64,000 bases of DNA from the NCBI RefSeq assembly GCF_016908635.1, contig NZ_JAFBEG010000011.1, positions 1-64,000 on the forward strand, given 5' to 3'. Made by a program: the position numbers and the translations under genes. Of this stretch, positions 39,202-41,947 are shown piece after piece. Source of the DNA: Sporohalobacter salinus. Its GTDB lineage: Bacteria; Bacillota; Halanaerobiia; Halobacteroidales; Acetohalobiaceae. Position 1 is the stretch's first letter. Each line of letters begins with the position of its first letter. The notes under the pieces were generated by a model. That model was not told where the DNA came from, searched no databases, and saw only the letters and a list, made by a program, of their open reading frames with translations.

Positions 39202-39313
39202 ATTATAAATTTGTAATTTTTGGTATTTAAAATGTTATAAACTGCAGTTTTCTTAAGTAATATTTTTTGATATAATAAGGTTTAGTATTTATTGTTTGAA
39301 GGGAGGAATTGAG

Positions 39314-39610
39314 TTGAGCCAGGAATCAAAGATAGGGAATTCATATAGTGAACACAGTGATGAGTTGATTACTAGATTAAAAAGAATAGAAGGACAGGTA
39401 CGAGGGATTCAACGAATGATTGATGAAGAGAAGTATTGTGTGGATGTTTTAACCCAGATTGCTGCTGTTAAAGCTGCTTTAAATAAAGTAGGAATGACAG
39501 TTTTACGGAATCATACCCATGGTTGTGTAAAACAGGCAGTAGCTGAAAGTGAAAATGGAGAGGAAATCATTGATGAGTTAATGGATGTTATTTCTAAATT
39601 TGCTAACTAA
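39314..39610 (+). CDS. CsoR/FrmR-family metal- or thiol-sensing repressor
   Basis: 98-aa all-helical DNA-binding protein of the DUF156 family. The core LKRIEGQVRGIQRMIDEEKYCVDVL is followed by LRNHTHGCV. The Cys in KYCVDV plus His and Cys in HTHGC match the C-H-C ligand set of copper-sensing CsoR, though persulfide- and formaldehyde-sensing members share part of it. The start is probably TTG 39314 (SD GGGAGG, spacing 6). A TATAAT at 39271-39276 lies upstream without a good -35. The next gene, RseC-like, is 21 nt away, so the pair is probably one operon. Confidence 0.85.
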   Translation: MSQESKIGNSYSEHSDELITRLKRIEGQVRGIQRMIDEEKYCVDVLTQIAAVKAALNKVGMTVLRNHTHGCVKQAVAESENGEEIIDELMDVISKFAN

Positions 39611-39631
39611 AAATTAAGGAGGGGAGGTTTT

Positions 39632-40066
39632 ATGCGGGAATATGCAAAGGTAATTGAAGTTAATGATAATTTGGCTACTGTTAGGATTCAGCGTCATGGT
39701 AGCTGTGATAAATGTGGAAAGTGTGGAGAATCTAATGATATAGAGGTAGAGGCTAAGAATTCTATTGGAGCTAAAGAAGGAGATTTAGTAACTATTGAAT
39801 TAAGAGATAGTAATGTATTAGGAGCTGCTTTAGTAGTTTATCTTTTGCCTTTGATTAATTTATTTATTGGTTATTTTATAGGGCAGTGGTTTAGTGGAAA
39901 TTATGGATTTGGAAATAGTGATCTAATAGGGGCTTTATCTGGAATTTCATTTTTAATTATATCTTTATTTTTTGCTCGTAAATATGGGGAGATTAATAAT
40001 TCTAAAGGAAAGTATCAACCTGAAATTAAAAGAACTGTTGATCCTACATCGGAAAACTTAACTTAA
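39632..40066 (+). CDS. RseC/MucC-family (SoxR-reducing system) membrane protein
   Basis: 144 aa. A soluble N-terminal segment (about 1-62) has a Cys cluster CDKCGKC typical of RseC proteins, followed by two membrane helices (about 68-90 and 100-120) and a basic tail. RseC relatives accompany Rnf or Rsx electron-transport complexes; no rnf gene is in the window. SD AAGGAGGGGAGG with ATG start. Pairing with a CsoR-type thiol/metal sensor is unusual and suggests redox or metal control (inference). Confidence 0.85.
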   Translation: MREYAKVIEVNDNLATVRIQRHGSCDKCGKCGESNDIEVEAKNSIGAKEGDLVTIELRDSNVLGAALVVYLLPLINLFIGYFIGQWFSGNYGFGNSDLIGALSGISFLIISLFFARKYGEINNSKGKYQPEIKRTVDPTSENLT

Positions 40067-40070
40067 ATTA

Positions 40071-40099
40071 TTGATCTTTGGTTAAAAATAAAATATAAT
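40071..40099 (+). promoter_or_regulatory. Promoter of hydG
   Basis: TTGATC (40071-40076), a 17-nt spacer and TATAAT (40094-40099). Transcription would begin near 40106, about 233 nt before hydG. Confidence 0.75.
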
Positions 40100-40265
40100 T
40101 ATAATGAAGAAGAGTAAGTTATTAAAAATATGTTATTATTAGTATCTCACATAATGTATCCTAATAAATTGGGACTTTTTAGTCCGGATTTAGAGGGATT
40201 AGAGATAGTAGTTTAATATTCTAAGTGAGAGGAGAGATCTAATCACTCGGAGGAAGGAGGTATAG

Positions 40266-40313
40266 ATGATTATGGCTTATCCTTGGGGGATAAGTCTTTT
40301 TATTTTAAATTAA
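40266..40313 (+). CDS. Candidate 15-codon leader ORF overlapping the hydG terminator
   Basis: ATG 40266 follows a perfect SD AAGGAGG (40254-40260) at 5 nt spacing and encodes MIMAYPWGISLFILN, stopping at TAA 40311-40313. The terminator hairpin at 40274-40296 lies inside it, so ribosomes initiating here would block the hairpin. It ends 25 nt before hydG. It contains one Tyr, the substrate amino acid of HydG, though a single codon is weak evidence for sensing. Not proven to be translated. Confidence 0.5.
   Translation: MIMAYPWGISLFILN
40274..40306 (+). terminator. Intrinsic terminator (attenuator) in the hydG leader
   Basis: GGCTTATCC (40274-40282) pairs with GGATAAGTC (40288-40296), one G-U pair, loop TTGGG, followed by TTTTTATTTT. 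It lies between the hydG promoter and hydG. Confidence 0.85.
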
Positions 40314-40338
40314 AAAAATCACAAAGGGGTGAGTTAAA

Positions 40339-41727
40339 GTGGCTACTAAAGATTTTATTGATGATGAAAAATTAGAGGAAATTTTAAATGATGCAGAACC
40401 AACAGAGGCTGAAATTGAAAGGATTATTGAAAAGTCATTGAATAAACAGAGATTAAGTTTAGAAGAGACAGCAACTTTATTACAGGCTGAAAAGCCGGAA
40501 TGGATTGAGAAAATATATGATGGCGCAAGAAAAATAAAGGAAAAGATTTATGGTGATCGTGTAGTATTATTTGCTCCTTTATATATTGGGAATAAATGTA
40601 TTAATGATTGTACCTATTGTGGTTTTAAAAAATCTAATGAAGATGCTGAACGTCATACTCTAAGTGAAAAAGAAATTAGACAACAGATTAAAGCTATGGA
40701 AAGCCAAGGTCAAAAAAGATCGATTTTAGTTTATGGTTCTCATCCAGATTATGATGCTGATTTTATGGCTGATACAGTTAAGACTGTTTATGATACTACA
40801 GAAGATAATGGGGAGATTAGACGAGTTAATATTAATGCTAAACCGTTAGACGTAGAAGGGTATAAGAAATTAAAAGAAGTAGGAATTGGAACTTATCAAA
40901 TTTTTCAAGAAACATATCATCACGAAACTTATCAAAAAGTACATCCTAGTGGGCCTAAATCAGATTTTGAATGGCGTTTAACAGGCTTAGACCGGGCGAT
41001 GGAAGCTGGCATTGATGATTTAGGAATTGGAGTTTTATTTGGGTTATACGATTGGAAGTATGAAGTTTTAGGTCTATTAGAGCATGCAATTCATTTCGAA
41101 GATAAATTTGGTGTTGGACCTCATACAGTTTCTTTTCCTCGCATTAAAGATGCAAGTAATATTGACATTAGTGATGAATATGAAGTTGATGATGAAGAGT
41201 TTAAACGTTTAGTAGCTATTTTGAGATTAGCTATACCATATACTGGTATGATTTTGACAGCACGTGAAGATGCAGAATTGAGAGATGAAGTAATGCAGTT
41301 TGGAATTTCTCAAATTGATGCGGGAACAAGAATTGAGATGGAAGGTTATACACATGCAGATGAAGAACAAGAATTAGATAAGGAACAATTTGAAATTGGA
41401 GATACCCGTTCTTTAGAGGAAGTTATGTATGAGTTAGTAAGAGATGGCTACGTGCCTTCATTTTGTACTGCTTGTTATCGTTTAGGAAGAACAGGAGAAC
41501 ATTTTATGGAGTTTGCTAAACCAGGATTTATTAAGCGCTATTGTACTCCTAATGCTCTCTTAACTTTTAAGGAGTATTTAGAGGATTACGCTTCTCAGCG
41601 AATTAAGGATGAGGGTAAAAAATTAATTCAACAACAAATTGCTAATATTGAAAATGAAGATATTAAAACAGAATTAATTGAGAAATTGGAGCGAGTAAAA
41701 GATGGCGAACGAGACTTATATTTTTAA
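40339..41727 (+). CDS. hydG: [FeFe]-hydrogenase H-cluster maturase HydG
   Basis: Radical SAM enzyme (462 aa) that cleaves tyrosine to p-cresol and supplies the CO and CN ligands of the H-cluster. The radical-SAM motif CINDCTYCGF (about 90, Cx3Cx2C) binds one [4Fe-4S]; the C-terminal motif CTACYRLGRTG (about 377) and the following FAKPGFIKRYC hold the second, HydG-specific cluster site. This separates it from ThiH. SD AAAGGGGTGAG; the start is GTG 40339. hydE and hydF are not adjacent. A regulated leader precedes it and a small gene overlaps its end. Confidence 0.95.
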   Translation: MATKDFIDDEKLEEILNDAEPTEAEIERIIEKSLNKQRLSLEETATLLQAEKPEWIEKIYDGARKIKEKIYGDRVVLFAPLYIGNKCINDCTYCGFKKSNEDAERHTLSEKEIRQQIKAMESQGQKRSILVYGSHPDYDADFMADTVKTVYDTTEDNGEIRRVNINAKPLDVEGYKKLKEVGIGTYQIFQETYHHETYQKVHPSGPKSDFEWRLTGLDRAMEAGIDDLGIGVLFGLYDWKYEVLGLLEHAIHFEDKFGVGPHTVSFPRIKDASNIDISDEYEVDDEEFKRLVAILRLAIPYTGMILTAREDAELRDEVMQFGISQIDAGTRIEMEGYTHADEEQELDKEQFEIGDTRSLEEVMYELVRDGYVPSFCTACYRLGRTGEHFMEFAKPGFIKRYCTPNALLTFKEYLEDYASQRIKDEGKKLIQQQIANIENEDIKTELIEKLERVKDGERDLYF

Positions 41728-41947
41728 AGAACAAGCCGAGGAAATAATAGACGAAAAAGAGATGAAAATTTGGTTAACAAAGAAGCAAGGTAAACGGATA
41801 GAATATCTATTTAAGTTAGGAAAGGAGCAGTTTGATCCTCCTCAAAAGATAGCTGAGAGTAAAGAATATATTCTCTTTGGTCAGAATATAAATAGAGACC
41901 AAAATGGAAAACTAAAAGAGTTATTTATGAAATATATTCAAGGATAA
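41702..41947 (+). CDS. Small unknown protein overlapping the end of hydG
   Basis: I do not recognise this 81-aa protein. It is charged and soluble, with segments KIWLTKKQGKRIEYLFKLG and ESKEYILFGQNINRD, and has no Cys or membrane segment. The ATG lies 26 nt inside hydG in another frame, with GGAG (41688-41691) about 10 nt before it, so translation would be coupled to HydG. It does not resemble the short ACT-domain TM1266-type regulator often found near hydrogenase maturases. A terminator follows 35 nt later. A role linked to H-cluster maturation is possible by context only. Confidence 0.65.
   Translation: MANETYIFKEQAEEIIDEKEMKIWLTKKQGKRIEYLFKLGKEQFDPPQKIAESKEYILFGQNINRDQNGKLKELFMKYIQG

Follow-up and report, generated by a model that had tools for sequence, protein, structure and literature searches.

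Why should hydG of Sporohalobacter salinus, which encodes an [FeFe]-hydrogenase maturase, be preceded by a long gene-free leader that contains a transcription terminator? The gene was identified by its match to TIGR03955 (531.7 bits against a cut-off of 312) in the window analysed here, by which we mean the whole 64,000 nt stretch of DNA from this species. In an initial annotation, made from the letters of this DNA, the leader had been read as an attenuator-type RNA of no recognised class. Our analysis points to a conserved cis-regulatory RNA that probably controls [FeFe]-hydrogenase maturation genes via premature transcription termination; that the RNA regulates, that it does so by switching genes off and that it responds to a signal are what we infer. 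The features of the locus are given below in window coordinates.

40071..40099, forward strand: sigma-70-type promoter, TTGATC-17-TATAAT (a consensus match alone, not significant by itself)
40266..40313, forward strand: small ORF MIMAYPWGISLFILN with the Shine–Dalgarno sequence AAGGAGG, overlapping the terminator (read from the sequence)
40274..40296, forward strand: intrinsic terminator, GGCTTATCCTTGGGGGATAAGTC then TTTTTATTTT (terminator search)
40339..41727, forward strand: hydG, [FeFe]-hydrogenase H-cluster radical SAM maturase (TIGR03955 profile match)
41702..41947, forward strand: gene for an 81 aa protein that matches nothing in Pfam or NCBIfam, overlapping hydG at its 3′ end

The leader of about 230 nt contains no genes, and it carries the nested stems and the intrinsic terminator before hydG that had been described for it. 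The promoter is likewise present and agrees with the consensus at 10 of 12 positions, but chance alone would supply 3.4 ± 1.9 such matches in that region; from the sequence, the transcript would be expected to start near 40106. Folding of the leader yielded −62.8 kcal/mol, compared with −45.3 ± 4.1 kcal/mol for shuffled sequences (z = −4.3; reached by 0 of 200 shuffles), and two terminator-like sites were seen in its region where 0.1 would be expected. Directly 5′ of the leader (window 39296–40066) lie a gene for a CsoR/RcnR-type metal repressor and then an RseC-like gene. The counterpart of the gene for the 81 aa protein comes after hydG in relatives too (reverse strands of L010, L011, L013 and L008).

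The receptor domain and its repeated module

hydG is present in 12 of the 13 genomes of the order and, by eye and using MAFFT, we found one motif common to nine of the order's hydG leaders, including that of the window. The domain that it defines, together with its parts, is laid out as follows.

40156..40255, forward strand: conserved receptor domain of ∼100 nt with two hairpins (covariance models R1–R3)
40130..40219, forward strand: optional outer extension of hairpin 1 (40130–40135/40214–40219, 40138–40141/40209–40212 and 40143–40148/40202–40207)
40158..40199, forward strand: hairpin 1 (covarying pairs)
40158–40162/40195–40199, forward strand: P1 of hairpin 1 (covarying pairs)
40166–40169/40188–40191, forward strand: P2 of hairpin 1 (covarying pairs)
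40172–40174/40183–40185, forward strand: P3 of hairpin 1 (covarying pairs)
40161–40165/40192–40196, forward strand: module 1, CUAAU opposite AGAGG (best-conserved positions of hairpin 1)
40219..40252, forward strand: hairpin 2, P4 (covarying pairs)
40219–40222/40249–40252, forward strand: P4a of hairpin 2 (covarying pairs)
40225–40228/40243–40246, forward strand: P4b of hairpin 2 (covarying pairs)
40231–40233/40238–40240, forward strand: P4c of hairpin 2 (covarying pairs)
40228–40232/40239–40243, forward strand: module 2, in inverted order, AGAGG opposite CUAAU (in hairpin 2)

When the nine leaders were aligned, 97 % of cells were paired and both sides changed in 8 of 23 pairs, which was equalled by only 1 of 500 shuffles; the covariation score was 0.359 versus 0.205 (0 of 500 shuffles), and sliding the partners abolished the signal. 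Changes on both sides rose to 16 of 23 pairs with 22 sequences (model R2), and to 17 of 23 with 27 sequences (0 of 500 shuffles; 93.4 % paired), the latter alignment being fitted to the structure; here too, covariation was lost upon sliding the partners. As such, the aptamer-like domain of the hydG leader is both conserved and covarying, as is required of a riboswitch. The window's own receptor scored 65.9 bits with model R3 (E-value 1.1 × 10−11), although it is itself part of the training set.

These data redraw the structure that had initially been proposed. Of the nested stem, the core at 40158–40199 is conserved, whilst the outer part is only an optional extension, and the hairpin at 40219–40252 had not been recognised. 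The extension comprises 16 pairs in the window, is of similar length in several Halobacteroidales and is missing in others; a long outer P1 stem was thus rejected as a universal feature because it is lineage-specific. Two competing helices, TCTCAC (40145–40150) with GTGAGA (40225–40230) and GATTAGA (40197–40203) with TCTAATC (40238–40244), are indeed present in the window but lack conservation in relatives.

The best-conserved positions are alike in both hairpins and consist of 5′-CURA-3′ opposite 5′-RAGG-3′, with a U-G beside a purine 2 × 2 loop. Both copies in the window read CUAAU/AGAGG, the module of the first hairpin facing outward and that of the second inward, and the unpaired purines of the receptor domain are invariant. 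This internal symmetry suggests either contact between the two loops or reading by a dimer, one loop per subunit.

Distribution among hydrogenase maturation genes

Model R1, trained on the nine hydG leaders of the order, was used to search 59 genomes of the class and returned 12 places: the nine training leaders plus three new ones at E ≤ 5 × 10−4. The first of these is in the S. salinus genome itself, on another contig, before hydF (TIGR03918, 583 bits); the second, in the same genus, follows parB and is separated from hydF by ∼2 kb of inserted sequence; and the third lies before hydG in a different family. The insert (G001:C1:2456207–2458336, at L108) is apparently a mobile element. Scanning class-wide hydG loci with R1 additionally revealed the RNA in Halanaerobium and its relatives, before a small gene that precedes hydG and encodes TM1266 (TIGR03959, 'iron-only hydrogenase system regulator', about 80 aa). 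With model R2 we obtained 30 matches at E ≤ 0.01, each at hydG, hydF or TM1266-hydG (counting the insertion-separated hydF copy); many of these are training members, and the independent evidence consists of the new places found by R1 and of the matches in Clostridia. At the same threshold, R2 found no match in the 22 genomes of the class that have no hydG, and hydE of the S. salinus genome has no copy of the RNA.

Amongst Clostridia, R2 detected the RNA 100–200 nt 5′ of hydG in Clostridium acetireducens (38.7 bits) and, followed by a terminator, before a hydG copy in a metagenome-assembled genome (50.8 bits). Model R3 (27 sequences), when run over 391 Clostridia genomes, gave 10 matches at E ≤ 0.05, with seven at hydG, hydF or TM1266; six of these seven are outside the training set, and some are followed by hydG or hydE-like genes. 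Furthermore, 12 of 30 Clostridia TM1266 loci contain a match at E < 0.1, mostly just 5′ of TM1266. Most of the 391 genomes gave no R3 match, and the members that did match are diverged. Weak R2 or R3 matches without hyd genes, at L186, L196–L199, L205, L207 and L209, were taken as false positives. The presence of this RNA in the leaders of hydG, hydF and TM1266 makes the proposed link to H-cluster maturation stronger than could be known from the hydG locus by itself.

Several observations at individual loci are recorded here. In some Clostridia TM1266 leaders (L204, L215 and L217) the module sits in rearranged hairpins, which suggests a second architecture of the same RNA. A degenerate sequence resembling hairpin 1 lies 5′ of hydG at L015 and may be a decayed remnant of the RNA; the genome concerned (G009) has no TM1266 above cut-off. 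G004, also without TM1266, has two hydG genes (L006 and L009), neither of which carries the RNA. The palindrome GTTTCACATGAAAC, found before several hydG genes, was considered as a repressor operator and rejected because similar palindromes occur inside parB and before hydF. As they do, and as TGTTTCACGTGAAACA is the parS consensus, parS-like sites near parB are more likely. Palindromes of the form TGTTTCAC(G/A)TGAAACA are located near parB and before hydF (L107, 1080–1105 and 1485–1502; L108, about 1620–1640), as well as 5′ of hydG in L012, L014, L007, L009 and L016; in Orenia, parS-looking palindromes overlap the outer stem of the RNA.

In order to place the RNA among known families we scanned the window against Rfam 15, in which no family reached its gathering score, and a relaxed threshold gave nothing credible at the hydG leader; neither the T-box model (RF00230) nor the SAM models matched there. 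For the leaders of relatives, matches at E ≤ 1 were limited to chance matches of microRNA type or to matches elsewhere in the loci. The scan itself works, as T-box, tRNA and TwoAYGGAY elements were recognised elsewhere in the same loci (a T-box, for example, in L092). With conserved, covarying stems and no matching family, the initial description of an unrecognised attenuator-type RNA at hydG is supported. A search of the open-access PMC literature found no RNA element described at hydG, hydF or TM1266, nor any account of H-cluster maturation being controlled at the RNA level. Reported motifs include orphan riboswitch candidates whose expression platform is a terminator (PMC8632094; PMC11109978); the main text of the former paper makes no mention of hydrogenase, hydG, hydE or hydF, and that of the latter none of hydrogenase.

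Terminator and proposed switch

An intrinsic terminator between receptor and first gene, the mark of an attenuator, is found in the window and in about 22 of 31 members, at 8–61 nt 3′ of the receptor. Some Halanaerobium members have no clear terminator, and therefore control may act differently there. To look for an alternative to the terminator, pairing probabilities were calculated with the partition function for transcripts cut before the terminator 3′ arm, which in the window yielded the following.

40252..40282, forward strand: possible antiterminator hairpin (partition function of truncated transcript)
40252–40254/40280–40282, 40257–40259/40276–40278 and 40261–40264/40271–40274, forward strand: antiterminator pairs (5′ arm in common with the terminator)

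In this truncated transcript the terminator 5′ arm is paired upstream with a probability of 0.73; the strength of this duplex does not exceed that of shuffled sequence (composition-preserving shuffle of the strand, z = 0.3), and it overlaps P4 at base 40252 only. In the C. acetireducens leader (L188), the terminator 5′ arm pairs with the 3′ strand of P4 over 11 bp at −17.5 kcal/mol (0 of 200 shuffles), and folding predicts the same pairing with probabilities of 0.48–0.70 in L108, L180, L183, L184, L188 and L203. On these folding models, it is plausible that the terminator 5′ arm set against the last strand of the receptor constitutes the switch in several relatives.

The mechanism that we propose would operate as follows. 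The two-hairpin receptor, with one internal-loop module per hairpin, would bind a signal linked to H-cluster maturation, and this binding would fix the second hairpin (P4). The purine-rich 3′ strand of a fixed P4, along with the bases following it, would be kept from the pyrimidine-rich 5′ arm of the terminator; the terminator could then form, and hydG (elsewhere hydF or TM1266-hydE/hydG) would be switched off. Without signal, the antiterminator would form and the gene would be read.

Candidate signals and related systems

What such a switch might sense is the question on which the remaining readings differ. We hold in even balance the broader proposal of a new class of RNA sensor in Halanaerobiia and Clostridia, which would monitor H-cluster assembly either directly, by binding an organometallic or iron precursor, or with TM1266 as an RNA-binding attenuation protein. 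In the direct case the RNA would be a riboswitch for a metabolite or an ion: its modules would dock together and create a pocket that accepts a small ligand from H-cluster assembly, candidates being Fe2+, an Fe-cysteine-CO/CN intermediate, SAM, 5′-deoxyadenosine, cysteine and tyrosine. The initial annotation had suggested that SAM, tyrosine or iron–sulfur clusters might be sensed. We regard this model as a serious possibility, given the complex, conserved two-hairpin architecture with its invariant unpaired purines, the terminator-based output and an association confined to a single biosynthetic system, a pattern seen with many orphan riboswitches; it would, however, require another explanation for the co-occurrence with TM1266 detailed below, and the Rfam scans gave no likeness to known SAM classes.

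TM1266 was above its curated cut-off in all 26 of the RNA-positive hydG genomes of the class, and the RNA was detected in none of the five hydG genomes without it (G004, G007, G009, G019 and G020; Fisher P = 0.001, uncorrected for phylogeny). Within the order, the RNA is found in nine of nine genomes with TM1266 compared with none of three without; the gene is mostly far from hydG here, yet its co-occurrence with the RNA is complete. From reading of the sequences, TM1266 in the order belongs to an operon with ylmH-like, divIVA-like and nucleosidase-like genes. The S. salinus gene (G000:C27:6047–6274, L248) has such neighbours, including an MTA/SAH-nucleosidase-like gene, followed by ileS, and the divIVA-TM1266 order is found again in relatives (L244, L245, L247 and L249–L251). 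We found a single TM1266 relative with a solved structure, 2nzc, whose annotation reads 'hypothetical protein'.

With the RNA limited, in this class, to genomes that encode TM1266, recognition by this protein seriously rivals a metabolite riboswitch. On the protein-dependent model, which we put forward tentatively, TM1266 would bind the leader with one subunit per CURA/RAGG module and thereby set termination, as in systems of the PyrR, TRAP or HutP type. Besides the co-occurrence, the model draws on the module being present twice, as a dimer would need, and on the RNA preceding TM1266 itself in Halanaerobium, which would amount to autoregulation. Weighing against it are six TM1266-positive hydG genomes in which no RNA was detected (G021, G024, G040, G044, G045 and G047), the dependence of co-occurrence on phylogeny, and the possibility that the protein simply belongs to the same biochemical system; moreover, we know of no RNA binding by TM1266. 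Overall, TM1266 as an RNA-binding factor and a metabolite riboswitch appear about equally likely.

The remaining explanations fare less well. It is improbable that the RNA is a constitutive structured 5′ UTR that affects the stability or processing of the mRNA and, its terminator being inefficient, does not switch: several Halanaerobium members without a clear terminator would fit, but a conserved, covarying and position-specific RNA at several genes of one system, with terminators in most members, would not. Translation-coupled attenuation by a leader peptide was also considered, as the ORF over the terminator, which the initial annotation had missed, has 15 codons with a good Shine–Dalgarno sequence and start codon, and short ORFs of a similar kind occur in Halanaerobium members (MPNFTLPIFGR...), their Shine–Dalgarno sequence lying within the P4 3′ strand. 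We consider this highly unlikely, however, and the ORF at 40266–40313 probably incidental: it is not kept in most of the relatives compared, most members from Halobacteroidales and Clostridia lack such an ORF, and the peptide shows neither conservation nor a run of one codon. Finally, a chance fold without function, for which the AT-rich, terminator-prone context speaks at most, can be dismissed, being contradicted by the covariation and by the independent recovery of homologues at hyd genes.

As a cis-regulatory RNA of maturation genes, the element is defined and transferable, occurring at hydG, hydF and TM1266 operons, and comes with a covariance model for finding more. It also provides a concrete candidate job for TM1266, a protein annotated as a regulator, and could be used to sense or tune the production of active [FeFe]-hydrogenase. 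Should the RNA sense an H-cluster precursor directly, the ligand would be of a type new to riboswitches.

Comparison with known systems reveals partial likenesses at several levels. The window module, with UAA opposite GAG in both hairpins, resembles the UAA/GAN internal-loop motif, but relatives show variants of it with UGA opposite AAG and with CAA opposite GAG. SAM, T-box and other amino-acid or cofactor sensors with terminator output would fit the chemistry of HydG (SAM, tyrosine and cysteine), although Rfam gave no match to them in the leaders of the window or its relatives. Closer are the orphan riboswitch candidates, which share a conserved structured leader, a terminator output, a tight link to one pathway and no assigned ligand; the hydG-leader RNA differs in that it is not in Rfam 15. 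PyrR, TRAP and HutP control attenuators in which the leader RNA forms mutually exclusive terminator and antiterminator structures. Although unrelated to these leaders in structure and sequence, the hydG-leader RNA resembles them as an attenuator leader with a possible small oligomeric protein partner, for which TM1266 is the candidate here.
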